39,600 nt of DNA from a virus. The stretch lies in IMG/VR virus record IMGVR_UViG_3300047176_000017, positions 1 to 39,600 of that record, one strand, 5' to 3'. The position numbers and the translations under genes are program-made. Below are positions 13,810 to 37,656 of this stretch, one piece after another; the stretch's first letter is position 1; the number at the start of each line of letters is the position of its first letter. The notes below the pieces were generated by a model, which searched no databases, was not told the DNA's origin, and worked only from the letters and a program-made list of their open reading frames with translations.

Positions 13810-14166
13810 ATGAGGCCGAAGCCGCTTACAGGCATATCGTTCAAACTGGCCGACCGGAACGGCACCTATCTCGGCGTGCTGATCGTGCCCGAATGGGTGG
13901 CGCGGCAACTGAACCCGCCGAATAGCGACCGCATCCATGACTACGTGACGGTGCGCATGCTGATCCGCGAAGTCCGGGCGTTTCCCACTGCTGACGATAA
14001 CAAACGCGCAGAAATGGCGGGCTGTTTCACCATCTACCCGTCGATGGCGCTGGATGGCGCGATTGAGGTCAGCGGCATCAATATCGGCGCGCTCTCGTCG
14101 CAGACCGGCTTTGCCTTCCTGCCTGGCGCGGCCTATCTCGCCGACGTGCGACTGGCGCCGGGCTGA
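13810..14166 (+). CDS. Hypothetical protein preceding the portal
   Basis: 118 residues, GGAGGGG 9 bases upstream. Beta-rich (TGISFKLADRNGTYLGVLIV, FTIYPSMALDGAIEVSGINI) with little helix. Its stop overlaps the portal start (TGATG), so the two are translationally coupled. Function unknown; a portal-associated or regulatory role is possible. Confidence 0.55.
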   Translation: MRPKPLTGISFKLADRNGTYLGVLIVPEWVARQLNPPNSDRIHDYVTVRMLIREVRAFPTADDNKRAEMAGCFTIYPSMALDGAIEVSGINIGALSSQTGFAFLPGAAYLADVRLAPG

Positions 14167-16547
14167 TGCCGCAGGACACCACCCGGCCGAAAGACGACGG
14201 GCGCATCCGCATGCCGCCCACCGACAGCGCGATGAACAAGATCAGCCCGCCGTTCAAGATGGACGACAAGGGCACCATGCTGGGCGGTCCGCGTGGCGAC
14301 AAGAAAAAGCAGCAGAAGCTGCTGGAACGGGTGCGCAAGCGGATGGACCGCGCCATCGCGGCCGAGTCCGACAACCGCAAAGCCGGGATGGATGACCGCT
14401 CGTTTGTCGCCGGTAACCAGTGGCCGTCCGAAGTGGTGGCACAGCGCAACCTCGACAAGCGACCGTGCCTCACCTTCAACAAGTTCCCCACCCTGATCAG
14501 CCAGATCACCAACGCGCAACGCCAGTCCAGGCCCTCGATCAACATCAGCCCGACCGGCGAGCGCGGCGATGCCGAGGTGGCGAAGATGTACCGGGGCATG
14601 ATCCGGTTCATTGAACGCGATTGCGGAGCCAATGCGCCAAACGGACCCTATGACACCGGGTTTGCCGATTCCGTCACGATGGGCTGGGGGTATTGGCGGG
14701 TGCTGACGGAATGGGAGGCGCCGGACAGCTTCAACCTCGTGCTCGTGGTCAAGCGCATCCGCAACCCGTTCACCGTTTATCTCGATCCGTCACACCAGGA
14801 GATCGACGGTTCTGACGCGAAATGGGGTTTCGTGTCGGAATTGCTGCCGCGCGAAGAATTCAAGGAGAAATGGCCGAAAGCCGACCAGATGCCTTTCACC
14901 CAGGCCGGTCTGGGCGAGACGATGAAGCAGTGGATCACCACCGACGAAATCCGCATCGCCGAGTATTTCGAGATCGAATACCAGACCAGGACGCTGATCG
15001 AACTCAGCAACGGCCATACCGGCTGGGAAGACGAACTCGACGAGATCACCGATGGCTACATCAAGCGCGGCAAGCTGTGGGTGACGGACGAGCGCGAGGC
15101 GCGGATCCCGCAGGTGATGTGGTACAAGGTCACCGCCAATGACGTGCTGATGGAACGGGAATGGCTGGGCAGCACCATCCCGATCGTCAAGGTGACCGGC
15201 CGGGAACTCGACATCGAGGGGCGGCCGAAGCTGAAAGGCATCGTGCGCGACGCCAAGGACGCGCAGCGCATGATCAATTACTGGGATACCAGCAAGACCG
15301 AGATGGTCGCGCTGGCGCCGAAATCGCCCTACATCGGCGAGGAAGGCCAGTTCGAGGGCCACGAAGACGAGTGGAAGATGTCGAACATCCGTTCGACGCC
15401 CTATTTGTCCTACAAGGGCACCTCGGTGAACGGCACGCCCGCCCCGCCGCCGCAACGTGTCGCCTTTGCTGGCGTCCCGGCGGGCATCGTCGAGGCCAGC
15501 CAGTCCGCGCAGCAGCATCTGATGGGAATAACCGGCGTCCGGTTCGATAGCACGCTGGCCGAACGGACGATGGACGAAAGCGGCAAAGCGCTGCGGGAAC
15601 TGCGCCAGTCCGGTGATATCGGCGCGTTTGACTTCATCGACAACCTCACCCAGTCGCTGCGACGTACTGGCGAGATCATGCTGGAACTGATCCCGAAGAT
15701 TTACAGCGAATCCCGCATCATCACGATCCTTCGCGAAGACGACAAAGAAGAGCAGGTCAAGATCGACCCCGCGCAGCCGAAGCCGATGGGCGAAATGCGC
15801 AAGCCCGACGGCAAGATGATGCGGGTGTTCAACCCGGTCATGGGCAAGTACGGCGTCACGGTCACGATCGGGCCGAACTTCGCCACCAAGCGGGTGGAAG
15901 CGGGCGAGAACATGATCGCCTTCGCCAAGGCGCTGCCGCAGACCGCCGCGCTGATCGCCGATCTGATCGCCAAGAACATGGACTGGCCGGGCGCGGAAGA
16001 GATCGCCACACGGCTGGCCAAGACCCTGCCGCCCAACCTGCTGGTGCCCGACCAGAAGGACCTCTCGCCGCAGGTGCAGGCGCTGCTGGCGTCGATGGAC
16101 GGCCAGATCAAGCAGCTTACCCAGCAGCTACAGCAGGCGATGGCGGCGCTGACCGACAAGAACCAGGACCGGGCGCTGGCGGCCGACAAATTCAACAAGG
16201 ATTACGAGGCCAAGCTGCTGAAGATCGTGGCCGACGTCGAGACCAAGATGGCGGCGACGGAAGAGAAGGCGAAGGCCAATTTCAACACCCATATCGGCGC
16301 GCAAATCCGCGAAATGGGTGCGGATACCGCCGCGCTGATGCAGGCTTTGGAAAACCCGCCAGCCGCCGCCGAGGGTGGCGCCCCAGCGGCGGCGACGGGC
16401 GGCGACGGTTCGAACCCGGCTTCCGCTGACGAAGCCACGCCACCGGCGCAAGCCCTCTCACATCTGCGGGAAGGCCGCAACACCACGTTCGCGAACGGGC
16501 AGACCTGGACCCTCTCGAACGGCCAGCCGGTGCGGGTGAAGACATGA
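14166..16547 (+). CDS. P22-like portal protein with long C-terminal coiled coil
   Basis: 793 residues. Family features: FNKFPTLISQITNAQRQSRP (about 106-125), then MYRGMIRFIERDCG and GFADSVTMGWGYWRVLTEW, matching the P22 gp1-type portal core. Twelve copies form the DNA channel at one capsid vertex, and the protein also nucleates procapsid assembly. Residues about 640-735 are a predicted coiled coil (QIKQLTQQLQQAMAALTDK onward), like the barrel helices of P22 portal. The tail is Ala/Gly/Pro-rich. The start overlaps the previous stop, and ATGA couples it to the next gene. It lies about 9.6 kb from terL because of the small-gene island. Confidence 0.9.
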   Translation: MPQDTTRPKDDGRIRMPPTDSAMNKISPPFKMDDKGTMLGGPRGDKKKQQKLLERVRKRMDRAIAAESDNRKAGMDDRSFVAGNQWPSEVVAQRNLDKRPCLTFNKFPTLISQITNAQRQSRPSINISPTGERGDAEVAKMYRGMIRFIERDCGANAPNGPYDTGFADSVTMGWGYWRVLTEWEAPDSFNLVLVVKRIRNPFTVYLDPSHQEIDGSDAKWGFVSELLPREEFKEKWPKADQMPFTQAGLGETMKQWITTDEIRIAEYFEIEYQTRTLIELSNGHTGWEDELDEITDGYIKRGKLWVTDEREARIPQVMWYKVTANDVLMEREWLGSTIPIVKVTGRELDIEGRPKLKGIVRDAKDAQRMINYWDTSKTEMVALAPKSPYIGEEGQFEGHEDEWKMSNIRSTPYLSYKGTSVNGTPAPPPQRVAFAGVPAGIVEASQSAQQHLMGITGVRFDSTLAERTMDESGKALRELRQSGDIGAFDFIDNLTQSLRRTGEIMLELIPKIYSESRIITILREDDKEEQVKIDPAQPKPMGEMRKPDGKMMRVFNPVMGKYGVTVTIGPNFATKRVEAGENMIAFAKALPQTAALIADLIAKNMDWPGAEEIATRLAKTLPPNLLVPDQKDLSPQVQALLASMDGQIKQLTQQLQQAMAALTDKNQDRALAADKFNKDYEAKLLKIVADVETKMAATEEKAKANFNTHIGAQIREMGADTAALMQALENPPAAAEGGAPAAATGGDGSNPASADEATPPAQALSHLREGRNTTFANGQTWTLSNGQPVRVKT

Positions 16548-17167
16548 GCGGTGCGATGAACCCGTCCGATCCGTGGCGGCCGGTGCATCATGCGGATGCC
16601 TGGACCCCGAAACTGGTGTCCGACAACACCAAGCCCGCCAAGGCCAAGCCGAAACCGGCCGATACGGCGCCTGAGACGGGGCCACAGGCCAAGCAGGACG
16701 GCGAACCAAAGCCTGGGCGCACCTCGGCCGCGATCACCGTCAGCACCCCTCTGGATGTCACCATGGCGCTGCCCGACGGGCTGGCGGACGACATCATCAC
16801 CTTGGTCGAGGCGCAGCGCGATCTTGCCGATCAGGTGGCAACGCTGGTCGACAAGCTGAACAAGTGGACCGCCGATGTGCAGAGCGCGATGCAGGCGGCG
16901 CAGCAGCCGGTCATCGAGACCATGCAATCGACCTTGCAGCAGGTGATGGCCGGGCAGCAGGCGCTGGCCGCACAGGTCAAGCAACTCGCCGATGCGCAAC
17001 CGGCGCTGACCTCGGGCATCGCCTCGTGGTCGCACAGCATCGAGGCCGCCATCCGGGCGCCACGGCGCGTGGCACTTGAGCGCGGCCAGGACGGTCTGGC
17101 GACCGGGGCCGTTTCCAGCGTCGTGTCCACCCCCACCCCACCCCCCGAAGCAAGGACAAGCCCGTGA
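16544..17167 (+). CDS. Coiled-coil protein downstream of portal
   Basis: 207 residues. Disordered Lys/Pro-rich N-terminus (PAKAKPKPADTAPETGPQAK), then a predicted coiled coil (about 83-165: LVEAQRDLADQVATLVDKLN, MQSTLQQVMAGQQALAAQVK) and a Pro-rich tail. Coupled to the portal by ATGA. It could be a portal-associated or minor head protein, or a second scaffold element. The main scaffold candidate is the gene at 23420. Confidence 0.55.
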   Translation: MSGAMNPSDPWRPVHHADAWTPKLVSDNTKPAKAKPKPADTAPETGPQAKQDGEPKPGRTSAAITVSTPLDVTMALPDGLADDIITLVEAQRDLADQVATLVDKLNKWTADVQSAMQAAQQPVIETMQSTLQQVMAGQQALAAQVKQLADAQPALTSGIASWSHSIEAAIRAPRRVALERGQDGLATGAVSSVVSTPTPPPEARTSP

Positions 17168-18258
17168 GCGTTTTTGCCACCGAGATCAACATCTACGGCT
17201 CCGCCAACATGCCTGAAACCGACGGCGTGACCGTCGGCGGCGCGGTGGACCTGACCAAGATCATCACCTTCAGCGACATGGCGGCGACCGGCACGATCGA
17301 TTTCCTGTCCTCGTCCTCCTCTGACACCGCCACCAAGATCCAGGTGGCCGGGCGCGACGCCTCGGGCATCTTGCAAACCCCGGCCGCCGTCACCCTGAAC
17401 GGGCAGGTCAAGATCAACGGCAGCCAGTCGTTTCAGCGCCTGCTGTTCGGCGCGATCTCGGGTGCCAGTGCCAACGGCCCGCTGGCCAACCCCGGCGGGA
17501 CCGCAGCGGTGGGCGATGTGGCGGCGATGGCGCACACCCTGACCATCAGCGGCCACACTTGCCAGGCTGGCAGTGCGAACCATTCCGGCGTGACGCCTCC
17601 GACCATCAAGCTGCAATCGGGCGACGGGGCCAGCATCACGCTGGGCATGATCATCCACCTGACCGGCGGCACCGGTTCGGGCCAGATCAGACAGGCGTGC
17701 AGCACCTCTGGCACCGGCTCGGGGCAGTATGGCACCGACATCATCGCGGTGAACCGCGACTGGGGCACCGTGCCGGACGCGACCACGACCTATGAGGTGG
17801 CGACGGGCATGCTGTTCCCGATCCTGCCCAACCCGGTCACAGCGGTCATCCGGCCGTTTTCCACCGTGGCGTCGGACGTGGTGGGCGGTTCGACCCGGCT
17901 CTACTACGAAAAGGCGTTCGTCCTGAACACGGACGGCACTACCGCGCTGACCTCGCAGACCCTGATCAAGCAGATTGACCCGTCGGGGCTGTATTCGGGT
18001 GGCGGTGCGTTCGATATCGCCCCGTGCACGGCGCTAAATGACACCAACACCACCACCAACCGCCAGACCGCGCCCAGCACCGGCGTTGGCTCATATTCGT
18101 CCGGTGCGGCGCCGCAGACCGTAACGCCGCCGGCGCAGACCGCCGCGTCGAACTCTGCCGCGCAGGCGCAAGGCTTCTGGATGCGGGAAACCCTGCCGCC
18201 GGCGCTGGCGCCGACCAACACCTTCTTCGACCTGCGGAGTTTCGGCACCTCGACCTGA
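17164..18258 (+). CDS. Predicted beta-rich virion structural protein
   Basis: 364 residues, GTG overlapping the previous stop. The opening NIYGSANMPETDG and following Gly/Thr-rich beta pattern (AATGTIDFLSSSSSDTATKI) resemble phage structural proteins found near portal or tail genes. The C-terminal 60 residues are Ala/Thr/Pro-rich with a closing motif (QAQGFWMRETLPPALAP). No enzyme motif. A decoration or tail-associated protein is most likely; the exact role is unknown. Confidence 0.6.
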   Translation: MSVFATEINIYGSANMPETDGVTVGGAVDLTKIITFSDMAATGTIDFLSSSSSDTATKIQVAGRDASGILQTPAAVTLNGQVKINGSQSFQRLLFGAISGASANGPLANPGGTAAVGDVAAMAHTLTISGHTCQAGSANHSGVTPPTIKLQSGDGASITLGMIIHLTGGTGSGQIRQACSTSGTGSGQYGTDIIAVNRDWGTVPDATTTYEVATGMLFPILPNPVTAVIRPFSTVASDVVGGSTRLYYEKAFVLNTDGTTALTSQTLIKQIDPSGLYSGGGAFDIAPCTALNDTNTTTNRQTAPSTGVGSYSSGAAPQTVTPPAQTAASNSAAQAQGFWMRETLPPALAPTNTFFDLRSFGTST

Positions 18259-18287: not shown

Positions 18288-20474
18288 TTGGCCCTGACCT
18301 ATGTTGACCGGGCGCGGATGAGCACCGCGACCACCGGTACCGGTACCATCACGCTAGGTTCGGCGGCGACGGCGTATCAGACCTTTGCCGCAGCGGGTGT
18401 GAGCAACGGCAACACGGTCGAGTATCTGATCGAGGACGGCAACGCCTGGGAGATCGGCGTCGGCACGTATAACTCGACCGGTCCGACGCTGGCGCGGAGC
18501 CTGCGGTCTTCGTCCACCGGCTCGCTGATCAGCCTGTCGGGGAACGGCATCGTGACGGTGGTGTTCACCGCGCTGACGCAGACCGAGACCTTGGCCTCCC
18601 CTCCGGCGATCGGCGGCACGGCGGCGAACAGCGGCGCGTTCACCACGCTCGCAACGTCGGGCCAGTACACGGCCAGCGCCAACATCGTGATGAACGGGAC
18701 CAACCCGCAGCTTTACATCGGCTCCACCGGCGCCAACCAATCGATCCTCAATATCGGCGCCGCCGCCGGGCAATACCGGCTCATCTATTTCAACAGCGGG
18801 TTCCTGGCTCGCTGGTCGATTGCCACCAGCGGCGAGGCCGAAAGCGGATCGAACGCGGGCAGCAATCTAGCCATCGACTCGTATTCCGATGCGGGCGGCT
18901 TTCTCGCTGCTGTGCTTTCGATCAACCGCGCCACCGGACTTGTGACCATCCCGGATCTCGGTTCGGCCTCGGCCGCCATCACCGGCGGCACGATCGACGG
19001 CACGATCATCGGCGGCAGCACGCCGGCGGCGGCGACGTTCAACTTCATCACCGTATCCTCGATCTCGGGCAGCGCGGGCACCATCGACGGCGTGGTGATC
19101 GGCGGGACGACGCCGGCGGCCGGTTCGTTCACCACCGTCACCGCCACATCGACGGTCAGCGGTGTCGGTCTGATCGCCACCACCAGCGGGATATCGATCG
19201 GCACGAATACGCAGACCGGCGCTTCGCTGAGTTTCAACACCGCAGCGGCCAACTACCGGCTTATGAATTTTTACTCAGGCGGGGTATCGCGCTGGCAAGT
19301 CGGTGTCGATAACTCGACCGAGTCCGGATCGAACGCGGGCGCCAATTTCTTCTTCAATTCGAACACCGACGCGGGCGGCTTTCTGGCGCAACCGCTGACG
19401 ATCAACCGCGCCAGCGGTCTGGTGAGCCTGTCGAAAGGGGCGGCGATCACCGGCGGATCGATCAACAACGCCACGGTCGGCGCCACCACGCCATCGACCG
19501 GCGCGTTCACCACCCTGACCGCCAACAACACCGTCACCCTGGCGCCGGTCACCGCCAATGTCGGGCGCAACATCTTCCACAACCCCCTGTTCAACATCGC
19601 ACAGCGAGGCACCGGACCGTTTACCACGGCGAGCGTCTACACCGCCGATCGGTGGATACTGTCGCTGGCCAATGACACCGACAGCATCACCGTCGCGTCG
19701 CTGACCGACACCGACCGGTCCGGGATCGGCAATGAGTATGCCGAAAACGCCTTGCAATGCGTGGTGGCAGGGGTGAGCACCGGCCTGACGCAGATCCTGC
19801 AATACACCGAGGACGTGCGCCGGACCGCCAACAAGACCGTTGTGCTAAGTTTCTGGGCCAAAGGTTCGGTGGCGCTGAACGTCGGCGGCTACATGAGCCA
19901 GAATTTCGGCAGCGGCGGTTCACCGTCGGCGTCCGTGTCGTTCGGCACGCAAAGTGTGGCGATCACGACAAGCTGGGCGCGCTACAGCATGACGTTCACC
20001 GTGCCCTCGACCTCGGGCAAGACGTTGGGAACCACGGCCAACACGAGCAGTCTTCTAGTCGCCCTGGGTCTTTCGGCGGGTGCCGCAGCCAGTCCGACCT
20101 TGGGTGTCGGGGTGCAGTCCGGCACCTTCACCTTCTGGGGCATGCAACTCGAAGTCGGCCCTGTCGCGTCGCCGCTTGAGACCAAGGAAATCGGCCGCGA
20201 TCTGGTGCTTTGCCAGCGTTTCTATCAGGTCTTTTCGACGTTGCAGGTCTACACCAGCTATGGCCTCGCTGCGGGCGCGGCGATCCAGGATTTCATCTTC
20301 CCCGTGACGATGCGCGTGGCCCCGACAGGCACGTTAAGCGGCGCCAGCTACGGCAACGCTTCGGCCGCGACGGTGAACGCAACAACCGTCAGCGAAGCCC
20401 GCATCCAGATCAGCATCACCGGAGTCGGCGCAGCGTTTGGCTCGTTTACCGCAGCCTTCAGCGCCGATTTCTGA
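18288..20474 (+). CDS. Tail fibre protein with duplicated module and carbohydrate-binding-like C-terminus
   Basis: 728 residues, TTG start with GGGAG upstream. Residues 1-95 match the conserved fibre N-domain ([20 protein letters not shown]). Two similar modules of about 65 residues follow (about 160-225 and 321-385), each with YRL...RW, ESGSNAG and DAGGFLA...INRASGLV. Between and around them lie [16 protein letters not shown]-type linker repeats. From about residue 425 ([30 protein letters not shown]) a jelly-roll carbohydrate-binding-like domain begins, typical of phage fibres that contact host polysaccharide. It begins the main fibre pair of the 17-23 kb block. Confidence 0.85.
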
Positions 20475-20487
20475 TCGGTAGGGCCTG

Positions 20488-23271
20488 ATGTACGGCTCAT
20501 CCGCCTATTCCAGCACCGCCTACGCCGCCGGGCGCACACAGTTCCTGGTGCAGATTGACGGCTTTGCGCCCGCCGAGTGGCTGGAAAGCCTGCGCCGTGA
20601 CATTGCCGTTCCCGACGAGGCGCTGGTTGGCGTTCGCACCGACGCCAACAGTCCCGACTCGATCTCCGGTTCGCCGCAAACCACCGGGCTGATATCGGCG
20701 GAAAGCCTCGCCAGTGTGCGCGCCGATGCCAATGTGCCGCTGGAAAACCTTGAAGGGCTGCGCACCGACGGCAACCTGCCGGTGGAAAATTTCACCGGTT
20801 CGCGCACCGACGGCAATGTGCCCAGCGAACGGTCCGGCAGCCCGCGCGGCGACACCGCCATCCCGGACGAATGGTTCGGCAGTGCGCGCGGCGACAGCCA
20901 GATCCCCAACGAGCGGTTGGAAGGCGTCATCACCGACGCCAATGGGCCGGTCGAAGACCTCAGCGGCGTCGCCAGGGACAGCCAGATACCGGCCGAACGC
21001 AGTGCCGCGACCGCGAATGTGGGCCTGACGCCGGCAGAATCATCGGCCAACGAAGTCACCACCGGCGCCATTCCGGTGGAAAACCTGGGCGGCATTGTCC
21101 GCGACCGCACTCTGCCAGACGAAAGCCTCTCGGGTGTCATCACCACCGAGATCAGCCCGACAGAATGGTTGAGCACCGTGCTGCCGGTGCAAATCGACGC
21201 TTCGATCCCGATCGAATGGCTGGGCGTGTTCCCGACCGTGATGATCGACCAGTCGATGCCGACCGAATGGACGGCTTCGGTTGAAACCGACGCCAATGTG
21301 CCGCTGCAAACCTCGGTTGATCTGGTTCGCACCGACGCCACGCCACCGACCGAAACGGTCGCATCGCTGCAAACCGACGCGGCCCCGCGCGACGAAACGC
21401 TCGCCAACGTCAGCATAGACGACAAGATCATCAACCGTTGGCATGGGCAGCCCACCACCACCAGCGCCATTCCGGCGGAAAACGCATCGGCACTGGAATC
21501 GGACGCGCTGACGCCGAACGCCGTGCTTGGATCTCCAACCGCCGATGCCGCGATCGCAGCGGAAACGACGGCCAATGTCAGCATAGACGACAAGATCATC
21601 AACCGTTGGCACGGCCAGCCCGTCACGGATGCGGCGGTGCCGGCGGAGACGTCCTCGGCGGTGCACACCGAGACGCCGCCGCTCAACGAGTGGCTGGGCG
21701 CGCTGCCGGGCGATACAGCAATCCCAGCGGAAACGACGGCCAACGTCAGCATCGACGAAAAGATTATCAACCGCTGGCACGGCCAGCCGGTCACCACAAC
21801 GGCGATCCCGGCGGAGTGGTTGATCTCCACCGCCACCACCGGTGCGATACCGACAGAACGGCTGGTTGGCGTCGCCACCGATCAAGCCCCGACGGCAGAA
21901 TCGCAGGCCAACGAGCAGACCCACAACGCCAGCCCGGCGGAGACGACCGCCACGGTAGCCGCCGATGGCACGGCGCCGGCTGAGGCTGCGGCCGGTGTTA
22001 TCGGCGACGAAGCCCCGCCGACGGAATGGACAAGTTCGGTCCTGGCGGTGCAGGTCGATACCAACATTCCGCTGGAATGGCTTGGCTCGACGCTCATGGT
22101 CCAGACCGACGCCTCGGCGCCGACGGAATGGACCGGCACGGTTGAAACCGACGCATCGGCGCCGACCGAGGCCATGGTTTCGGTTAGTCGCGACGGCAAA
22201 AGCCCGGCCGAAAGCCTGCAATCGGCGCAAACCGAGGGCACAAGCCCGGTCGAATCGCTGGTTGGCGTGCAGAGCGACGCCAGCGCGCCGGACGAAACCA
22301 CAGGCACGGTCAGCACCGACACAACGAGCCCGGTTGACGCGCTGCAATGGGTGGCGGCGACGGGTGCGACGCCGGTGGAATCGCTGGCCGGGGTGGCGAC
22401 CGACAGCGTCACGGCAAATGAAGACCTGATCTCGGTCGATACCGACAGCGCAAGCCCGGCCGAGGCGATGCCATCCGTGCAAGCCGTCGGCGCCAGCCCG
22501 GTCGAGTCGTTGGCCGGTGTGCAGCGTGACACGAGCGAACCAACGGAAGGGCTTGGATCAGTCCAAACCTACGCTTCAAGTCCAATCGAGTGGTCCAGCT
22601 TGGTCGCTGGCGATGCGGCGATACCGGCAGAAGCACAGGCCGCCGCCTCCACCGATCGGGGCGTGCCGGTTGAAAGCCTGACCGGCGTGATGGTCACGCA
22701 GAACGATCCAAACGAGTGGACGAGTTCTGTATCTGCGGTGCTGGTCGATCAATCGATCCCGGCCGAATGGACGGCATCGGTTGTCAATGACGGCCTATCG
22801 GTTGACGAAACCGCTTCTGCGGTTGTCACCGACGCCGCAATCCCGGACGAGCGCGGCGAAATAGAGGTCGTGTTCGGCGGAGCGAATGACCAGTGCATTG
22901 AGCCGCCGCCCGGTTATCGGCGGCTGCTGGACACCTCGAACGTTGACCTGGCAGCGCAAGAAGCGGCGCGGCTGCGCCAGTCGCGCATTGAAATCGGTCT
23001 GTTGCCGCAAGACGACGTGCCCGACCTGCCGGCACCGATCGCCGATATCCCGCCCGAACAGGCGATCATCTTCGTTGTTCCGCCGGTCATCGAGGTTGTC
23101 CCGTTCGCGGCGGATGCGATTGCGGCCGAGATCGCAGCGACGTTGCTGGATGCCATTCGCGCCGACGATGCGGCAACGATCGCGGCTGAGGCGGAGGCGG
23201 ATGCGCTGAAAATGATGCGCCTGATCGCCGATGACGCTGATGTTTTGATGCTGCTTTCGGCGCTGATTTGA
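20488..23271 (+). CDS. Giant tandem-repeat fibre-like protein, 927 aa
   Basis: Residues 1-30 (MYGSSAYSSTAYAAGR then QFLVQIDGFAPAE) form a Tyr/Ser-rich head. Residues 31-788 divide exactly into 53 contiguous repeats: 47 of 14 residues, five of 17 and one of 15. Consensus is roughly (W/S/T)-L-x-G-V-x-T-D-A-x-x-P-x-E, with near-constant Pro-x-Glu at the end. The last 139 residues are unlike the repeats and include a helical, Ala/Asp/Glu-rich tail. No signal peptide or membrane helix is seen. Position after the tail fibre gene suggests a long fibre or appendage. A beta-spiral or solenoid shaft is inferred by analogy with about 15-residue-repeat viral fibres such as the adenovirus shaft, not shown. 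Family not recognised. Confidence 0.75.
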   Translation: MYGSSAYSSTAYAAGRTQFLVQIDGFAPAEWLESLRRDIAVPDEALVGVRTDANSPDSISGSPQTTGLISAESLASVRADANVPLENLEGLRTDGNLPVENFTGSRTDGNVPSERSGSPRGDTAIPDEWFGSARGDSQIPNERLEGVITDANGPVEDLSGVARDSQIPAERSAATANVGLTPAESSANEVTTGAIPVENLGGIVRDRTLPDESLSGVITTEISPTEWLSTVLPVQIDASIPIEWLGVFPTVMIDQSMPTEWTASVETDANVPLQTSVDLVRTDATPPTETVASLQTDAAPRDETLANVSIDDKIINRWHGQPTTTSAIPAENASALESDALTPNAVLGSPTADAAIAAETTANVSIDDKIINRWHGQPVTDAAVPAETSSAVHTETPPLNEWLGALPGDTAIPAETTANVSIDEKIINRWHGQPVTTTAIPAEWLISTATTGAIPTERLVGVATDQAPTAESQANEQTHNASPAETTATVAADGTAPAEAAAGVIGDEAPPTEWTSSVLAVQVDTNIPLEWLGSTLMVQTDASAPTEWTGTVETDASAPTEAMVSVSRDGKSPAESLQSAQTEGTSPVESLVGVQSDASAPDETTGTVSTDTTSPVDALQWVAATGATPVESLAGVATDSVTANEDLISVDTDSASPAEAMPSVQAVGASPVESLAGVQRDTSEPTEGLGSVQTYASSPIEWSSLVAGDAAIPAEAQAAASTDRGVPVESLTGVMVTQNDPNEWTSSVSAVLVDQSIPAEWTASVVNDGLSVDETASAVVTDAAIPDERGEIEVVFGGANDQCIEPPPGYRRLLDTSNVDLAAQEAARLRQSRIEIGLLPQDDVPDLPAPIADIPPEQAIIFVVPPVIEVVPFAADAIAAEIAATLLDAIRADDAATIAAEAEADALKMMRLIADDADVLMLLSALI
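20578..22851 (+). repeat. 53 tandem repeats, 42-bp period (14 aa)
   Basis: In-frame coding repeat, residues 31-788 of the 927-residue protein. The phase is kept through the whole stretch. The five 17-residue units (two near residues 227-260, two mid-way, one near the end) each insert three residues after the fifth position, as in WLSTVLPVQIDASIPIE and WTSSVSAVLVDQSIPAE. Protein-level identity between most units is low to moderate, so most copies are old. Confidence 0.9.
21397..21900 (+). repeat. Three higher-order copies of a 168-bp (4 x 42) block
   Basis: The marker TANVSIDDKIINRWHGQP occurs three times exactly 168 bp apart (its CAGCAT at 21411, 21579 and 21747). The first two copies share an identical stretch of about 35 bases, while the third has several synonymous changes plus Asp-to-Glu. 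This shows block duplication of four repeat units, more recent than the rest of the array. Confidence 0.85.
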
Positions 23272-23331: not shown

Positions 23332-23419
23332 ACCGAACGACGTGCCTGACCAACCGGCTGGTGACGTGCCGGGTGACCATCTCCGCCTGCCCTAGACGAC
23401 CCCCAGGAGACGTTTGCCC

Positions 23420-24541
23420 GTGGCATCGATTGCCGTTTCGCGCCCACCTGACATCCTCATTCGCACAGCCCCGCCGCTGTCGGCGACGTCCGACTCCCCG
23501 TTGGCCGAGGTGGCAAAGCCACCGGTATCCGCATCCAACCATGCCGACGACAACGATGCCGGCATCCCGGCGGAAATGACGTTGCAGGAGAAGGCCGCAG
23601 CGGATGCGGCGCGATCGGTGGAAGCCGGTGCGGACCCAGAAACGACTGAGAAGCCTGCAAAACCGGCGAAAGCCGACAAGACCGCCAAGGCCGAACCAAC
23701 TGAGCCGGAAGTCAAAGTTGAAGCCGCCGGCGAGGACGATGAAGTTGACGTTTCGGATCTTCCCCCAGGCACCCCGACATGGGCGGTGCGGGAGATATCG
23801 AAGGCACGCAAGGTCTCGCGCACCCAGGTTGCCGAAGCCGCCGCTGCCATCAAAGCCGCGACGGACGCTGCGGCGGCAGCGCGGGCGGAACTCGCGGCGT
23901 TGCGCGCGGCGGCGGAAAAGACCCCCGAACAAGCCAAGCCCCTCGAACCGGTTGTCGATGCCCGCCCGACCCGCGATGCGTTCGATGACCCCGATTCGTA
24001 TGACACCGCGCTGACCGAATGGGCCGAACGCGAGGGCGTGCGCAAGGTTGCCGCCAAGCAGGAAGCCGAAGCGCAGGCCAAGGCGAAGGCCGACGCCGAA
24101 GCGGAAGCGGCGCGCCAAGCTGCGATCTGGACCGCGCGGCGTACGGCGGCGATCGAGAAATACCCCGATTACGAGAAGGTTGCCGAGGGCGATCATGTCG
24201 TCTCGATGCCGATGGCGTCTGCGATGATGGGCCTCGAAAACGGCACTGACGTTGCGATGTATCTGGGCCAGAACCCCGAAGAGAGTGCCAAGATTGCCGC
24301 GATGCCGAGCCCGGTGTTGCAGATGGTCGAGGTTTGCAAGCTGGCGGCACAGCTATCGGCGCCGAAGCCGCGCGCGACGCGCGCCAAGCCGATCGAGCCG
24401 ATCGAGCGCAACACAGCACCCGCCGATACGTCCGAACGCGAGCCGTCGATGGATGAATGGGCGGCCAAGCGTAACCCCGAGATCATGAACGGCCGCAAAC
24501 CGTTCTTCAACGTCACTGAGCGCGTTGCGGCGCGGCACTGA
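23420..24541 (+). CDS. Scaffolding protein
   Basis: 373 residues. GTG 23420 is chosen because AGGAGA lies 9 bases upstream; a TTG at 23414 is too close to it. Rich in Ala/Glu/Lys, with a disordered N-terminal third (PAKPAKADKTAKAEPTEPE), long helices (AAAAIKAATDAAAAARAELA, EAEAQAKAKADAEAEAARQA) and a C-terminal conserved part (AAIEKYPDYEKVAEGDHV, AMYLGQNPEESAKIAAM). This matches P22-type scaffolds, which chaperone coat assembly and exit before DNA packaging. It lies just ahead of the coat gene, as in P22. Confidence 0.8.
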   Translation: MASIAVSRPPDILIRTAPPLSATSDSPLAEVAKPPVSASNHADDNDAGIPAEMTLQEKAAADAARSVEAGADPETTEKPAKPAKADKTAKAEPTEPEVKVEAAGEDDEVDVSDLPPGTPTWAVREISKARKVSRTQVAEAAAAIKAATDAAAAARAELAALRAAAEKTPEQAKPLEPVVDARPTRDAFDDPDSYDTALTEWAEREGVRKVAAKQEAEAQAKAKADAEAEAARQAAIWTARRTAAIEKYPDYEKVAEGDHVVSMPMASAMMGLENGTDVAMYLGQNPEESAKIAAMPSPVLQMVEVCKLAAQLSAPKPRATRAKPIEPIERNTAPADTSEREPSMDEWAAKRNPEIMNGRKPFFNVTERVAARH

Positions 24542-25087: not shown

Positions 25088-26272
25088 GTGGCCTCAAACG
25101 CCCTACTCACGCCGGCCCTGATCACCAAGGAAACACTGGTGATCCTGGAGAACAACCTTGTCGCAGCCGGCAAGGTCAACCGTCAGTTCGAAAACCAGTT
25201 CGTCAAGATCGGCACCACGCTGACCGTGCGCAAGCCGAACCGGTTCAAGATCACCCTTGGCCCGGCTTTGCAGATCCAGGACATCAGCGAGCCGTCAACC
25301 TCGATCACCGTCTCCACCCAGGCGCATGTGGACTTCCAGTTCAGCAGCCAGGAACTGACGCTGACCATCGAGGAATACTCGGAGCGGTATTGCAAGCCCG
25401 CCGCCGCCACCATCGCCAACCAGATCGATATCTCGGTGCTGCAAAACTTCACCGCGATCTACAGCGAGGTTGGCACGCCTGGCACCCTGCCGAACTCGTT
25501 TGCCTCGCTCGCCGCCGTCGGCCAGCGGCTTGACGAGCAGGCCGCACCGCAGGACGGCCGCGTGCTGATCCTCAACCCCGCCGCCTACTGGTCGATCGCC
25601 AACGGGCTGTCCAACCTGTTCACCCGTTCGGTTGCCGAACCGGCACTGAAAGGCTTCCTGGCCGCGATCGCCAACTTCGAAATCTACGAAGACCAGAACA
25701 TCCAAAGCCAGACCGTCGGCAACTATGCCGGCACCCCGACCGTCAACGGCGCTGGGCAGACCGGGGCATCGCTGGTCACGCAGGGCTGGTCGAACAGCAT
25801 CGCCACCCTGCTGAACGTGGGCGACGTGTTCACCATCGCGGGGGTGTTCGCGATCAACCCGCAAAGTCGCCAGTCCACCGGCAGCTTGATGAACTTTGTC
25901 GTCACCACCACCGCTTCGTCTTCCGGCGGCGGCGCATCGACCCTGGCCATCAGCCCCGCGATCACCACCACCGGCGCCTATCAGAACGTTTCGAACTCCC
26001 CGGCGAACTCGGCTGCGATAACCGTTCTTGGAACGGCATCAACCACCTATTTCCAGAACATCGGGTTTACCCGCGATGCGTTCGGGTTAGTGTGTGTTCC
26101 CATGGAGTTACCGGGCGGCGTGGACTTCGCTGCACGTGAGATGTATCGCGCAATCAGCATGCGTATCGTTCGGGCTTTCGACATATTTAACGACGTTACT
26201 CCGTGCCGTATCGATGTGCTGTACGGCACCAGCACGTTTTATCCAGAACTCGCCGCCCGGCTGACCAACTAA
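25088..26272 (+). CDS. Major capsid (coat) protein, P22 type
   Basis: 394 residues, GTG start with AGGAG upstream. The N-terminus LLTPALITKETLVILENNLV, then VNRQFENQFVKIGTTLTVRK and FQFSSQELTLTIEEYSERYC, fits the P22 gp5/HK97-fold coat family. Residues about 235-340 (Thr/Ser/Gly-rich) would hold an inserted domain like the P22 I-domain. The C-terminal AREMYRAISMRIVRAFDIFN is typical. It should be the most abundant virion protein. A strong terminator follows immediately. Confidence 0.9.
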   Translation: MASNALLTPALITKETLVILENNLVAAGKVNRQFENQFVKIGTTLTVRKPNRFKITLGPALQIQDISEPSTSITVSTQAHVDFQFSSQELTLTIEEYSERYCKPAAATIANQIDISVLQNFTAIYSEVGTPGTLPNSFASLAAVGQRLDEQAAPQDGRVLILNPAAYWSIANGLSNLFTRSVAEPALKGFLAAIANFEIYEDQNIQSQTVGNYAGTPTVNGAGQTGASLVTQGWSNSIATLLNVGDVFTIAGVFAINPQSRQSTGSLMNFVVTTTASSSGGGASTLAISPAITTTGAYQNVSNSPANSAAITVLGTASTTYFQNIGFTRDAFGLVCVPMELPGGVDFAAREMYRAISMRIVRAFDIFNDVTPCRIDVLYGTSTFYPELAARLTN

Positions 26273-28972: not shown

Positions 28973-31306
28973 ATGGCGCAATCCCCGATCCTGGGCGGTT
29001 TTTCCAGATCCCGGTCGGCCAATGTCAGCGATGGCGAGGCTTACAATCTCTATCTCGAAGTCGTCGAAACCAAGGACGGCAAAGTTCCCGGCGCGCTTTA
29101 CCTCACCGCCGGGCTGGACCTGATCGGCACACTCGGACCCGGCCCGGTGCGCGGCGTCAAAGTGCTCAACGACGTGCTCTATGTGGTCTCCGGCAACAAC
29201 GTCTACAGCCTGACCGAGAACGGCACCGCAACGCTGATAGGCCAGATCGTCGATGGCACGGCGCCTGTCTCGATGTTCCAGAACACCAAGCAGATCATGA
29301 TCGTGGACGGCGTCGGCGGCTGGCTGGCACCTGGCGGCTATCCGCTGACCGGTGGCACCATCACCGGCAGCGCAACCAACCCGACCACCGGCGCCAACGT
29401 CACACTCACCGGCCTCGCCGGCGGCCTGTATGCGGTCAACGACACGATCACCCTGCAAGCGGCGACGGGAACCCAGACCAGCTATCCGATCTTGATGGTG
29501 ACGGCGATCGCCAACAATCCGGTCACGCTCTACACACTGCCCAACGCCGGGACGACGTACAACTCGAACACCTCCAACACCACCACCGCGATCACCGGCA
29601 AACCCGGCGTCGGCTCGGGCCTGACACTCAATACCACCGCCACATCGGGCGTGCTGACGGCCGCGACCGTGGCAGCGGGCGGCAGCCAGTACGCGCTGAA
29701 CGATACCGGCCTGATCAAAACCTACTCGGAAGACGCGGTGTATCAGGTCACCGGCGTGTCGGCCGGCGTGGTCACCTCGGTGCGGCTGCTTTACGGCGGT
29801 TCGGAATATGCGAGCGGCACGGGACAGGCCACACTCGCCGCACCCGCCGTGCCCGCCGCCAACGGAACCGGCTTCATCATCAGCACCACCGCCAGCGCCG
29901 GGCCGATCACCGCCTCCACCCTGGTCGCCGGCGGCAAGAGTTACGTCGTCGGCAATGTCGGCTCAATCGATGGCGGCAGCGGCGATGCGACATATCGGGT
30001 GACGGCGATCGGCCCGTCCGGGATGGTCAGCGCCTTCACCATCACCCAGGCCGGAACGGTCAACGACAAGGCCGCCACCTTCACCCAAAAGAGCACCTCC
30101 GGCTCCGGTTCGGGCTTTACCCTGACATCGCCCGGATACGGCTCGTTTCTCGGGCTGGTCGAGATCACCCTGCCGTTTCCCAACCCGACCGTCGGCGGGA
30201 TCTCGGACGGCTTCGGCGTGCTGGTGTTCCAGGGCCAGCAATACCTCGCCGCATCCGACGAACTGGACCTCTCGACATGGCAGCCGCTGTCGTACGGCGT
30301 TTCCGACAGTTCGCCCGATAATTGTATGTCTTTGGCGGTGATTCACGACGAAGTTTACCTGATCAAAGAAAATCACACGGAAATCTGGATCGACAATGGA
30401 ACGTCGCCGTTTCCGTTCGCACTGCTCACCTCCGCGCGCATGGAAAGCGGCACCATCGCGCCGTTTTCGCCCGCACCGCTGGGCGAATTCCTGCTGTGGC
30501 TGTCGCGCAATGAACAGGGCAAGGGCATCGTTGTCCGCGCCCAAGGCTACAATCTCATCCCGGTTTCCACACAGGCGCTGATCGCGGAATTCGACACCTA
30601 TGCGAACCTTGGCGACGCCATCGGCTACGGCCGCCAACAAGGCGGGCATCAGTTCTATGTGCTGACCTTCCCCGAGGCGAACAAAACCTGGGTCTATGAC
30701 CTGACATCGAGCGAACTCACCGGCGTGCCGCAATGGCACCGCCTGGCCGCCTGGACCGACGGGCAGTGGAACCGCCACGCCGGCAACTGCTTCACCCCCT
30801 GGACCGGTTCGGTCACGCTGGTCAGCACCACCACCACCTATCAGGCGAACTCGGTGATCATCACCGGCGAGACGCTGGAAACCGCGCAAGGGCTGGTGGG
30901 GCTGCCAACCAGCTTCTACACCGCGCTGTTCTCGGTGTGGCTGAACCTGCCGGAAAGCGGCGGGACGGGGCTGATCTTCTCCAACCAGGGCGGCATGGCG
31001 ACGCCGGGCCTGTCCATCACCATCCAGAACGACGCCACCGGCAGCCCGCAAATCACCGTCAAAGCCTGGGATTCATCGTCCGCCGCGATCGTGGTGGCGA
31101 CGTATGACTTCACCACCTGGGCGGCGTGGGTGAACATCCTGATCTCGATCGACACCGCGACGCAGCAATTGCAGGTCTACGCCAACACGATCGTCTCGAA
31201 CAAATTGGTCGAAAGCAATCTGTCGCCGGTGGCGATCACGTGGTCTTCCAGCCATGCGATTGCGCCGTCGGCGACGCAATCCTGGGCCGTCACTGCGGTT
31301 CCATGA
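28973..31306 (+). CDS. gp10-like packaged-DNA stabilization protein, N-terminal part, with inserted modules
   Basis: 777 residues, GAGAGG upstream. Residues about 1-120 and 397-610 match the P22 gp10-type stabilization family (LGPGPVRGVKVLNDVLYVVS, QIMIVDGVGGWL, then YLAASDELDLSTWQPLSYG and WHRLAAWTDGQWNRHAGNC). Between them, about 122-396, lies an inserted beta-rich stretch with at least two repeats (GSGLTLNTTATSGVLTAATV, GTGFIISTTASAGPITASTL). After residue about 635 comes a ConA/LamG-like domain (FYTALFSVWLNLPESGGTG, GLSITIQNDATGSPQITVKA). The normal C-terminal end of the family is missing and appears in the next gene. The protein plugs the portal after packaging; the modules likely display to the outside. 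Confidence 0.75.
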   Translation: MAQSPILGGFSRSRSANVSDGEAYNLYLEVVETKDGKVPGALYLTAGLDLIGTLGPGPVRGVKVLNDVLYVVSGNNVYSLTENGTATLIGQIVDGTAPVSMFQNTKQIMIVDGVGGWLAPGGYPLTGGTITGSATNPTTGANVTLTGLAGGLYAVNDTITLQAATGTQTSYPILMVTAIANNPVTLYTLPNAGTTYNSNTSNTTTAITGKPGVGSGLTLNTTATSGVLTAATVAAGGSQYALNDTGLIKTYSEDAVYQVTGVSAGVVTSVRLLYGGSEYASGTGQATLAAPAVPAANGTGFIISTTASAGPITASTLVAGGKSYVVGNVGSIDGGSGDATYRVTAIGPSGMVSAFTITQAGTVNDKAATFTQKSTSGSGSGFTLTSPGYGSFLGLVEITLPFPNPTVGGISDGFGVLVFQGQQYLAASDELDLSTWQPLSYGVSDSSPDNCMSLAVIHDEVYLIKENHTEIWIDNGTSPFPFALLTSARMESGTIAPFSPAPLGEFLLWLSRNEQGKGIVVRAQGYNLIPVSTQALIAEFDTYANLGDAIGYGRQQGGHQFYVLTFPEANKTWVYDLTSSELTGVPQWHRLAAWTDGQWNRHAGNCFTPWTGSVTLVSTTTTYQANSVIITGETLETAQGLVGLPTSFYTALFSVWLNLPESGGTGLIFSNQGGMATPGLSITIQNDATGSPQITVKAWDSSSAAIVVATYDFTTWAAWVNILISIDTATQQLQVYANTIVSNKLVESNLSPVAITWSSSHAIAPSATQSWAVTAVP

Positions 31307-32958
31307 CCTACAGCATCGTCAACCTGGGCCATCTTTCGGGCGGCAACCTCAGCTATGCGATGGCGGTCTCCGCCGATGGCACGACGGTAACCGGCTATGC
31401 CAACACAAGCACGGGCGGCGCCTCGCAAGCGTTCTACTGGACCTCCGGTTCGGGGATGGTCGGCATCGGCACGGTCAGCGGCCAGACCACGGCCGCCGGG
31501 CTGGCCCTGTCCGCGAACGGGTCTGTCATCGTCGGCGTGTCCGGCACGCACGGCTTCCGCTGGACCTCTGGCACCGGGATTGTCGATCTCGGCGTCAACA
31601 ACGTGCCGTTTTGCTGTTCGTCCGACGGCAGCACCGTCTACGGCAACAACATCTCGACCGGACAGGGGTTTGTCTGGACCTCGGGCAGCGGCGTGGTCGC
31701 CATCCCCGGACCAAGCGGGCTGTATGGCGCGGTCTGGCAACTCAACGGCTGCTCTGGCGACGGCATAACCACCGTCGGCTATTATTTCGATGGGTCCGGC
31801 GTCACCCACGCCTGCACCCGGACATCGGCCGGCGGCTTCGTCACCCTGGCCAACCTGCCGGGCGGCACATCAGCCGACAACAGCGTAGCCAACGGCATTT
31901 CCTCCGACGGGACGGTGATCTTCGGCTCGGACCAGTCGGTCGGCGAAGGCATCTGGACCAACGGCACGCCATCACTCACCGCGACCATCGCGCAAAACCC
32001 GCAATCCAATCCGGGTTATGCGGTCGGTGTCTGGGATCATCTGTCCTCGAACGGCTCTGTCATCGTTGCCAGCGGCTATCAGGCGCTGGTCAGCGGCAGC
32101 GTGCCCAATCTGGGCCTCGGCAACAGCAGCACCTTTGCCACCGGCGTGAACGGCGACGGTTCGGTGCTGGCCGGCGCGTCCTTCAATGCCAGCAATGTCT
32201 GCTATGCGGTGATCTGGACGAGCGCGACGCCGCCACCCAGCCAGGAAGCGACGGTTGCGGAATTGTTCTTCGCCGCCACCTCGGGCTTCGTCGATCTCAC
32301 CGTGCCGTCCAACCGGCGCCTGTTCATCTCGGCGGCCGGCGGCGCGGAAAACCTCGGCGCCAACGGCCAGGCGCCGTTCGGCGTGGTGCCGGCGGTGTTC
32401 CTCACCTCGAACGGCACACCCTCATCCTTTGCCGCCAATGCCGGGCGCGGCGGCGCGTTCGCGATCACCGGCGGCAGCCTCACGGCGGGCGGCTCGGCGC
32501 CACCCGGCTCATCGCAGACCGTGACGACGGAGCAGGTCAATTCCACCGGCCAGGGCGTGCTGGGCGACTATGCCTCGGGCAACCTCTATGCGTTCAACCC
32601 GAAAACCAAACTCGACAACGGCGTGCAACGCCGCTGGCTGCGCCGCTGGCGCGCCCTGCCCGGCGGCAACCCGTCCGCCAAGACCTTCGCCGCGCTGTGG
32701 GTGGATATGCAGACCGGTGCGGGCGTGCCGGAAGGCACCAACCCGCACGTCATGCTGCGCTGGTCGGACGATGGCGGGCACACATGGTCGGATCAACGCA
32801 TCGAGTCGGTGGGGCTTTTGGGTGTGACAGCGGCCACCGTGAAGTTCAATCGCCTCGGCACGACCAGAAGATTTGCTGCTTCAGACCGTATTTTCGAGTT
32901 GTCATCGGCGGATCAGTTCATGGTGGCCATTCTCGACGCAGGAGTGGATGTCACATGA
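31303..32958 (+). CDS. HAF-repeat propeller fused to the C-terminal stabilization-protein domain
   Basis: 551 residues, ATGA overlap with the preceding gene. Residues 1-305 hold seven HAF-type motifs (AVSADGTTVTG at 21, ALSANGSVIVG at 68, then near 103, 149, 198, 246 and 281), which should fold as a seven-bladed propeller. Residues about 310-415 are a Gly-rich beta domain. From about 417 (GVLGDYASGNLYAFNPK) to 551 (NPHVMLRWSDDGGHTWSDQR, FMVAILDAGVDV) the sequence matches the C-terminal region of gp10-like stabilization proteins, the part missing upstream. It is likely that the two products assemble together in the tail. Confidence 0.7.
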   Translation: MTYSIVNLGHLSGGNLSYAMAVSADGTTVTGYANTSTGGASQAFYWTSGSGMVGIGTVSGQTTAAGLALSANGSVIVGVSGTHGFRWTSGTGIVDLGVNNVPFCCSSDGSTVYGNNISTGQGFVWTSGSGVVAIPGPSGLYGAVWQLNGCSGDGITTVGYYFDGSGVTHACTRTSAGGFVTLANLPGGTSADNSVANGISSDGTVIFGSDQSVGEGIWTNGTPSLTATIAQNPQSNPGYAVGVWDHLSSNGSVIVASGYQALVSGSVPNLGLGNSSTFATGVNGDGSVLAGASFNASNVCYAVIWTSATPPPSQEATVAELFFAATSGFVDLTVPSNRRLFISAAGGAENLGANGQAPFGVVPAVFLTSNGTPSSFAANAGRGGAFAITGGSLTAGGSAPPGSSQTVTTEQVNSTGQGVLGDYASGNLYAFNPKTKLDNGVQRRWLRRWRALPGGNPSAKTFAALWVDMQTGAGVPEGTNPHVMLRWSDDGGHTWSDQRIESVGLLGVTAATVKFNRLGTTRRFAASDRIFELSSADQFMVAILDAGVDVT

Positions 32959-33545
32959 AGTCAAAGCCGTTTCTCATCACCGGGCTGCCTCGCTCGCGAA
33001 CCGCCTGGATGGCGGCGGCAGCGCTGAATGACGTCTCGATCTGCGTGCATGAACCGCTGCGCAGCGCCGAACGATGGGAAGACGTGTTCACGACGGTGTG
33101 GAACATGAGCGGATTTCGCTATCTTGGCGTGTCCGATCACGGCATGGGCTTTCACCTGCCCGAGATCATGAACCGGCTCGCGCCGCAAACCCTGATCATC
33201 CAGCGGCCGATCCGGGAGGTGGAAGCCTCGCTGCGGCGGCTGCGCTTGCCCGACAGCAATATCTGCGAGCTTCTGCAAGGCGTTCTCGACTCGGTGCATC
33301 ACCATGCAATCATGCGCGTGGCGTATGATGATCTCTGCAATACCGCCACCGTGGCGCGGTGCCTGCGGCATCTGATGCCGGATGCCAGCATTTCCTGGGA
33401 CCGCATCCGCAACCTGCAACGGCTGAACATCCAGGCGCACGATATCGGCGCGGTGATCACCGACGGTATCACGCGCGGCCGGAAACGCGACGTGTGCAAG
33501 CTGATCCCGCCGCATCTCGTTGAACAGTTCCGCCTGCTGGCATGA
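32955..33545 (+). CDS. Sulfotransferase-like P-loop protein
   Basis: 196 residues, ATGA overlap on both sides. The N-terminal FLITGLPRSRTAW contains a GLPRSRT loop (10-16) like the 5'-phosphosulfate-binding loop of PAPS sulfotransferases. IIQRPIREVEASLRRL (R84, S92) resembles the 3'-phosphate-binding R...S motif. Shorter than typical cellular sulfotransferases (about 250-300 aa). It sits inside the tail-gene operon, so it could sulfate a host surface glycan or a virion protein. Substrate unknown. Confidence 0.6.
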   Translation: MKSKPFLITGLPRSRTAWMAAAALNDVSICVHEPLRSAERWEDVFTTVWNMSGFRYLGVSDHGMGFHLPEIMNRLAPQTLIIQRPIREVEASLRRLRLPDSNICELLQGVLDSVHHHAIMRVAYDDLCNTATVARCLRHLMPDASISWDRIRNLQRLNIQAHDIGAVITDGITRGRKRDVCKLIPPHLVEQFRLLA

Positions 33546-34315
33546 CCATCAAACCGATCATCCTCGCCCCGCGCGAACAGTTCACCGACAAGGACGGCAA
33601 CATCGCGCGTTCCTGGTGGCGGGCGCTGAATACGCTTTTCAACAATTCCGGGACCCTCGCCTCGCCGCTGGTGACCACCGCAAGTGCGGTGCTGTCGGCG
33701 GCGGATCTGAGCAGCGGCGGGACAATCTCCGCACCCGACATGCCGGCGGAGACGCTGCTGGGCAATGCCACCGCTACCGCCGCGCAGCCGGGAACGGTCG
33801 AGGTCGGATCGTCGCTGGCGTTCAACAGCGGCACGATCAATCTGGCAAGCCTCCCGGCAGGCACCTTGCTGGGCAATGGCGGTTCGCTGGCGGCGGTCCC
33901 CAGCGAGGTGGCGATCGGCAGCAACCTCACGCTGGCGAGCGGCACGCTGTCCGTGTCAGACAGCATCGATACGACCTATGCCTATACGATCCGGGATACG
34001 CGCGGGCAGGTGAACGACGCCACCGCACTGGCCAACGAGGCGCTGACGCTGGCCGTGCTCGGGGGATCAGGAACATCGGGCGGCGCAGGCACCATCACCG
34101 TGGCGGCCGATAGCCTGTTCGGCAATGCCGGGACGGTTGCCGCAGCCGGGCAAAGCATATCGGTCGGCTACGGCCTCACCCTGACAACGCTGGGCACCCT
34201 GGCAATCAATCCGCTGACCGCGCCGATCTGGGCGCCGCTGGTCAATGGCGACCTGCCAGGCCCCACCCTCATCGCCGATCCGCTCGGCCAGTGCATCATG
34301 GTTGAAATCCGATGA
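33542..34315 (+). CDS. Tail fibre/needle-like protein
   Basis: 257 residues. The N-terminus PREQFTDKDGNIARSWWRAL is the common phage fibre/needle opening (PF-D--G-ISR-WxRF type). The middle has repeated LLGN and SGT(I/L) strands (AETLLGNATATAAQPGTVEV, AGTLLGNGGSLAAVPSEVAI). The C-terminus NPLTAPIWAPLVNGDLPG, then IADPLGQCIMVEIR, is typical of trimeric fibre ends. Coupled by ATGA on both sides. Confidence 0.7.
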   Translation: MTIKPIILAPREQFTDKDGNIARSWWRALNTLFNNSGTLASPLVTTASAVLSAADLSSGGTISAPDMPAETLLGNATATAAQPGTVEVGSSLAFNSGTINLASLPAGTLLGNGGSLAAVPSEVAIGSNLTLASGTLSVSDSIDTTYAYTIRDTRGQVNDATALANEALTLAVLGGSGTSGGAGTITVAADSLFGNAGTVAAAGQSISVGYGLTLTTLGTLAINPLTAPIWAPLVNGDLPGPTLIADPLGQCIMVEIR

Positions 34316-36771: not shown

Positions 36772-37656
36772 CCCTATCTTATCGCGTCCGGCATAGGCGC
36801 CGTCGGTTCGATCGCATCCGGGATCTTCGGCGCCGGCGCCGAAAGCAAAGCCGCGAAAGCCGAGGAACAGGCGTTTCGCGAGGCAACGAACCTCGAAGAG
36901 CAAAATTACGCCACGGCGCAACAAGCCTATGCGCCGTATCAAGCCGCCGGCACCAACGCGCTGGCGCAAATCCAGAAGCTGCTGAACATCGGACCCGGCA
37001 CCGCAGGCAACGCGACCGATCCCATCCTGCAAATGCTGGGCATCGGCGGCGGCGGTGCGGGCATCAACCCGGCCACATTCCAGGCATCACCCGGTTACCA
37101 GTACGCCTTGCAGCAGGGCACGCAGGCGGTGAACAACGCCGCCGCGACCGGTGGCGGGGTGGGCGGCAACGCGCTCAAGCAGTTGCAGGCCACTGGCCAG
37201 GGCCTCGCCAATCAGAACTTCACCAACTATCTCAACAGCGCCAGCGGCGCGTTCCAGGGGCTTCTCGGAAACCTCGGCGGTCTGGTTTCCACCGGCCAGA
37301 ACGCCACCAACTCGATTTCCAGCCTCGGTGCCAACGTCGCCAAACAGGCGGGTGCCAACGCCATCGGCGCCGGCGAGGCGCAAGGCTCGGGCATCGTCGG
37401 TTCGTCCAATGCGCTGTGGGGTGGCATTACCAACGCGCTGAACAACATCGGCGGCGGGCTGACCGGCGGACCTGGCACCGGCGGGGCTCCTAACGGCGGC
37501 GGCGGCGTCAATGCGCTGCTGTATGCGCTGATGAACCAAGGCGGAGCGCCCATTCCAGGCCAGCCAAGCGCCTATGCCGGGCAGATGGTCGATACCTCCG
37601 GCTGGGGTGCGCCGGTGGGGCCGAACAACATTCCGGCCACCGTCTGGAATAACTGA
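36769..37656 (+). CDS. gp7-like DNA-ejection protein, ATT start
   Basis: 295 residues if initiated at ATT 36769. Hydrophobic, Gly/Ala-rich N-terminus (PYLIASGIGAVGSIASGIFG) followed by helical KAAKAEEQAFREATNLEEQN and APYQAAGTNALAQIQKLL. Then FQASPGYQYALQQGTQAVNN and NALKQLQATGQGLANQNFTN, the well-known pattern of P22 gp7-type ejection proteins. These leave the virion with the DNA and help form a transfer path through the envelope. The ATG at 37033 would remove the conserved N-terminus. The next gene overlaps its stop (TGATG). Confidence 0.8.
   Translation: MPYLIASGIGAVGSIASGIFGAGAESKAAKAEEQAFREATNLEEQNYATAQQAYAPYQAAGTNALAQIQKLLNIGPGTAGNATDPILQMLGIGGGGAGINPATFQASPGYQYALQQGTQAVNNAAATGGGVGGNALKQLQATGQGLANQNFTNYLNSASGAFQGLLGNLGGLVSTGQNATNSISSLGANVAKQAGANAIGAGEAQGSGIVGSSNALWGGITNALNNIGGGLTGGPGTGGAPNGGGGVNALLYALMNQGGAPIPGQPSAYAGQMVDTSGWGAPVGPNNIPATVWNN

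Follow-up and report, generated by a model that had tools for sequence, protein, structure and literature searches.

The shaft of the adenovirus fibre is a triple beta-spiral, in which each unit of ~15 residues has two short strands joined by a conserved Gly/Pro beta-turn; shafts of this type rise by ~1.3 nm per unit. Repeats of 14 residues with a (D/E)-W core make up the C-terminal part of KVP40-type gp15, the tail sheath stabiliser of Vibrio phages KVP40 and 1.081.O. In 1.081.O (L191, 4275-4468) the 42-bp coding repeats of gp15 have been annotated as CRISPR spacers; they encode the 14-residue protein repeat. Among tailed phages, Agrobacterium phage 7-7-1 bears long, flexible proteinaceous head fibres of 88-114 nm (PMC12796354). 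Here we describe a 927-residue protein, encoded by gene D, whose 53 repeat units share features with these systems, and which is probably a fibrous virion protein, acting in a host-contact appendage as a spacer or shaft of variable length.

Gene D lies in the window, by which we mean the whole 39,600-nucleotide stretch of viral DNA that was analysed. Judged by its gene content, the window phage is P22-like, of the short-tailed type, with gene D inside a predicted virion-gene operon. The relevant genes are as follows:

2991-4532: terminase
14166..16547, plus strand: portal protein (PHROG match, phrog_156), left flank of the cassette
16544..17167, plus strand: gene A, ORF of 207 aa, overlapping the portal stop by 4 bp
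17164..18258, plus strand: gene B, 364 aa, by locus comparison the conserved partner of D-type repeats elsewhere
18288..20474, plus strand: gene C, 728 aa, with a tail-fibre-type C-terminal part (phrog_4492, E=4e-50; weak CBM_4_9)
20488..23271, plus strand: gene D, 927-aa repeat protein (ORF and translation, ATG start)
23414..24541, plus strand: head scaffolding protein (PHROG match, phrog_8865), right flank of the cassette
25088..26272, plus strand: P22-type major coat protein (PHROG match, phrog_283)

The genes from portal through A, B, C, D and scaffold to coat are all co-directional, and gene D is the last of the cassette. Overlaps of 4 bp join portal to A and A to B, short gaps follow B and C, and 13 bp separate the end of C from D. 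No sigma-70-type promoter was found between 13.5 and 26.5 kb of the window, nor any Rfam RNA in the window.

The window itself is part of a larger genome, as it is matched at about 99.6-100% by IMGVR_UViG_3300047331_000009 (88,432 bp). Both ends of that record match window positions 33209-33335 (~127 bp), which suggests a circular or circularly permuted genome of ~88.3 kb. For a P22-type gene set this is unusually large. The gene for gp10/Hc3-like head closure seems to be split, with two overlapping ORFs (28973-31306 and 31126-32958) matching different parts of phrog_578; the second of these starts with repeats weakly matching DUF3466. A further fibre-like protein is encoded at 34312-35649, with DNA-level internal repeats at 34547-35040.

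The initial annotation had partitioned residues 31-788 of gene D into 53 units, 47 of 14 residues, five of 17 and one of 15. Dynamic programming over the same residues with the array's own PSSM reproduced this partition exactly, with a score of 1004.5 compared with a mean of 134 (sd 18.5, maximum 169) for 50 shuffles re-optimised identically. The protein is laid out as follows, all on the plus strand:

20488..20577, plus strand: N-terminal 30 residues (MYGSSAYSSTAYAAG...), the first ~15 kept in both orthologues
20578..22851, plus strand: array of 53 units of 14 (47), 17 (5) and 15 (1) residues by segmentation, net charge -88
21166..21267, plus strand: first pair of 17-residue, W-starting units by segmentation, residues 227-260 (units from 227 and 244)
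21394..21816, plus strand: internal duplication, its copies 168 bp (4 units) apart and 76% identical in DNA, with IDDKIINRWHGQP
22027..22128, plus strand: second pair of 17-residue, W-starting units by segmentation, residues 514-547 (units from 514 and 531)
22717..22767, plus strand: single 17-residue, W-starting unit by segmentation, residues 744-760
22852..23268, plus strand: C-terminal region of ~139 aa

Within the unit, Trp or a small polar residue stands at position 1, Leu at 2, Val at 5, Asp at 8, Pro at 12 and Glu at 14, and conservation is strongest for Glu (46/53), Pro (43/53) and Asp (39/53), followed by Val (33/53), Leu (24/53) and Trp (16/53). The period is also evident from Pro-Pro pairs at a lag of 14, which number 30 where 4.6 are expected. 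All five 17-residue units start with Trp, as does the unit after each of them (5/5). The earlier proposal that three-residue insertions come in pairs holds for those at 227 and 244 and at 514 and 531, but the insertion at 744 is single.

Units starting at residues 304, 360 and 416 share a near-identical IDDKIINR segment, followed in each case by WHGQP. In the units carrying IDDKIINR and IDDKIINRWHGQP the Pro-x-Glu motif is broken while the 14-residue register is intact, and these units reflect internal duplication with a 56-residue offset. The ratio of dN to dS between the duplicate copies is ~0.34 (0.23/0.68), and we therefore take the repeat sequence to be under constraint. Codon use is coding-like, with a GC content of 0.66/0.53/0.76 by codon position. 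The array consists to 36% of Ala, Thr and Ser, has few aromatics, and its units are poor in hydrophobic residues.

The N-terminal 30 residues contain a short (Y/L)-G-x-x-x-(Y/L) motif and are a candidate virion anchor; repeat proteins of three other loci (L006, L215, L238) have similar LGxxxLG starts. The C-terminal region is rich in Ala, Glu, Asp and Arg and is helix-like by eye. Its last ~130 residues are kept, at 54-61% identity, in two orthologues only, and no relative of this domain was found beyond these. The initial annotation recognised no named family, and this is borne out, as gene D had no match in PHROGs (hmmscan, E 0.01), Pfam or PDB. Searches with either the whole protein or its C-terminus against PHROGs, Pfam, PDB sequences and named phages returned nothing meaningful. 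An assignment to YajR_YAM was dropped, the hint (E 0.007) being below our cut-off. Our literature search found no paper on a 14-residue repeat of this type.

Scanning IMG/VR with the window coat protein gave 80 loci, 57 of which contain both portal and scaffold genes. Only three of these 57 P22-like loci (3/57) carry the A-B-C-D cassette, namely L104, a near-identical copy of the window genome, and L105 and L106, the nearest relatives of that genome, with coat proteins 91% and 88% identical. The portal-scaffold interval in the remaining loci measures from 94 bp to 4.5 kb, and A-D is therefore an accessory cassette, the interval being one prone to insertion. In another such locus (L118, 3095-7483) the interval contains two HNH-like genes and a methyltransferase-like gene, as judged by eye, which suggests an insertion hotspot between portal and scaffold. 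The gene D proteins of the three cassette genomes are 927, 480 and 579 residues long, with roughly 53, 23 and 29 units. Both ends of the protein (the first ~15 and last ~130 residues) are recognisable in the orthologues, while the length of the array differs. Moreover, the C-terminal region diverges fast, with a dN of 0.33-0.43 compared with 0.08-0.10 for the coat protein and 0.12-0.15 for gene B.

Related repeats occur in other phages. In IMG/VR, a DNA pattern of three consecutive P-x-E-W units picked out about a dozen phage proteins that share the 14-residue unit and whose N- and C-terminal domains are unlike those of gene D. A profile built solely from the repeats of these other phages matches gene D with E=4.9e-31 (best of 600 shuffles, 0.005), an agreement that at Pro and Glu is owed partly to seed selection. 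Agreement is independent at Asp-8 (58% and 67%), the hydrophobic position 5, Ile 11 and Leu 2. Trp at the start of the unit is far less frequent in gene D: in the P-x-E-flanked units compared, 21% of those in the window have it versus 91% of the others. The same DNA pattern gave 84 matches in bacterial genomes, nearly all of them short tandem DNA repeats, with one (L094) judged real.

The repeat is also linked to gene B, a homologue of which adjoins some of these P-x-E-W proteins. A gene B scan of IMG/VR gave 35 loci, or 24 once duplicates and the window's relatives were dropped. A repeat ORF is present in 9 of these 24 non-redundant loci and in none of 76 cassette-free coat-protein loci (Fisher p=7e-7), although two of the nine also contributed seed repeats to the profile. 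Gene B homologues adjoin a D-type repeat in no fewer than nine further phage groups, whose gene sets are of the myo- and siphovirus types. In one of the myovirus type (L215) the module comes directly after baseplate genes, where tail fibres are usually encoded: the wedge genes are followed by B, a C-like gene, a small gene and D. In L225 gene B likewise follows baseplate genes. Elsewhere the B-D module lies among head-neck genes, either after an HK97-type coat gene (L222) or before a neck gene (L194), and in a sipho-type genome (L226) it precedes the terminase. Because these sipho-type modules lie in head/neck or pre-terminase positions, the location of gene D on the virion is ambiguous. Among bacterial genomes gene B was found in 4 of 369, the starting genome included. 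At one of these loci (L238) the repeat profile matches the ORF beside B (E=7e-8), and at another (L237) a similar Asp-x-x-Leu-Pro array can be seen by eye. No member of the gene B families was found by tblastn against named phages.

Since related repeats recur beside gene B in many unrelated phages, gene D probably forms that part of a virion appendage which is long and thin. We infer an external fibre or spacer role from where the gene lies in the operon, from gene C and from the modules next to baseplate genes. The fibre idea of the initial annotation thus gains, as regards a structural fibre or appendage role, from these contexts, the link to gene B and the variable length of the array; single-chain structure prediction showed neither of its two suggested folds, a triple-stranded fibre or a beta-solenoid. 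An AlphaFold2 single-chain model of 300 residues gave a pLDDT of 41 and placed a short strand in each unit across ~150 residues of the first half (pLDDT 50-62). When seven units were modelled from a near-gapless 37-row alignment, pLDDT was 36 and the strand pattern was gone. Since obligate multimers are often modelled badly as single chains, the low pLDDT leaves a multimeric shaft versus disorder undecided. A triple-stranded array is a guess.

A flexible and acidic tether or brush that is intrinsically disordered, its period arising from duplication and short binding motifs and not from a folded shaft, would agree with a pLDDT below 50 across most of the array, with its composition and strong net charge, and with a repeat number that varies freely. 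We nevertheless consider it somewhat doubtful, given the strict unit length (47/53 exactly 14), the constrained Asp, Pro, Glu, Val and Leu columns and the low dN/dS between duplicates. Moreover, hydrophobicity alternates at I-P-V-E-W in the Trp-rich relatives, with a beta-like moment of 0.54 versus a helix-like one of 0.35, although the window's own units lack this alternation. The regular strands of the first model would fit a single-chain beta-solenoid, but their confidence was low and they were lost with the clean seven-unit alignment; in addition, 14 residues with few hydrophobics would offer little for a self-standing core. The low AlphaFold2 confidence thus speaks mildly against a self-standing solenoid, and we regard this fold as improbable.

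Two further alternatives concern where the protein acts. It is unlikely, in our estimate, that gene D encodes a capsid fibre or head-decoration fibre like the vertex fibres of phage 7-7-1 instead of a tail appendage. The cassette's position between portal and scaffold, the modules beside the HK97-type coat gene and the neck gene, and the existence of head fibres on 7-7-1 all favour such a role, but gene C has a tail-fibre domain, two modules are baseplate-adjacent (L215, L225), and profile searches found neither repeat nor gene B in 7-7-1. Least credible is that gene D is not a virion surface protein at all and acts as an internal ejection or assembly helper. Its proximity to the scaffold gene and its Ala-rich C-terminus would fit, yet in other phages the module lies next to baseplate genes, in the window it is accompanied by a tail-fibre gene, and the window has a DNA-ejection-type gene elsewhere (37033-37656).

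Under the preferred reading, a virion appendage, the short N-terminus of gene D would anchor the protein to the virion, perhaps via gene B. The array would project as a thin, acidic, elongated shaft, most likely multimeric, with the number of units setting the reach of the appendage, and the C-terminal ~130 residues would form the tip, or a domain for multimerisation or attachment. More tentatively, and with a little less than even confidence, we propose a new class of fibre shaft built of 14-residue (D)xxx(I)-P-x-E-(W) units, a portable, gene B-linked module across podo-, myo- and siphovirus-type genomes in which unit number tunes length. If true, this would be a phage-appendage repeat architecture unnamed in current libraries, with gene B as its marker across morphotypes and a simple, testable rule whereby reach is set by the number of repeats. 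Many 'hypothetical' structural genes of environmental phages would also become easier to annotate.

Lastly, gene D can be set against the known systems. It resembles the adenovirus shaft in its long array, its unit of near 15 residues and its fibre gene setting. However, its period is 14 residues, it has no dominant Gly column, and its Pro is flanked by hydrophobics within (I)-P-(V)-E-(W) instead of forming a Gly/Pro turn, and it therefore does not match the adenovirus consensus. Were an adenovirus-type rise to apply, the array would measure near 70 nm, a figure that is arithmetic and not evidence. The capsid fibres of phage 7-7-1 would be the functional analogue of gene D. The 7-7-1 genome has no profile match for the gene D repeat or gene B. 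Two neighbouring 'structural protein' ORFs in that genome (L228, 4296-6739), with short W/Y/P-rich (GDWEYPxY) or AP-MAD repeats, are candidates for its capsid fibres and have no profile relation to gene D. The PHROG 4492 tail fibre family is matched by gene C and not by gene D. Among the closest known things, the repeats of KVP40-type gp15 are alike in period and at most candidate homologues of gene D. They lack Pro-x-Glu and are missed by the P-x-E-W profile, and a weak match to PHROG 6079 is their sole link to the P-x-E-W repeats. PHROG 6079, annotated 'tail protein' and likewise among the closest known things, is not matched by gene D (hmmscan, E 0.01) but is matched by several of its relatives, down to 1.7e-13. 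Short GTVW/RTWVL repeats end many D-type proteins (L006 7200-7300, L011 4780-4878, L198 6890-6988) and are absent from the window protein. Closest to gene D are the unnamed P-x-E-W proteins of IMG/VR (L005-L015, L194, L196, L201 and L203), part of which belong to PHROG 6079. They differ in being more hydrophobic and in having other N-terminal domains and GTVW-type short repeats at the C-terminus, but equal gene D in unit length and in register, with hydrophobic residues at positions 5 and 11, Asp at 8 and Pro-x-Glu at 12-14.
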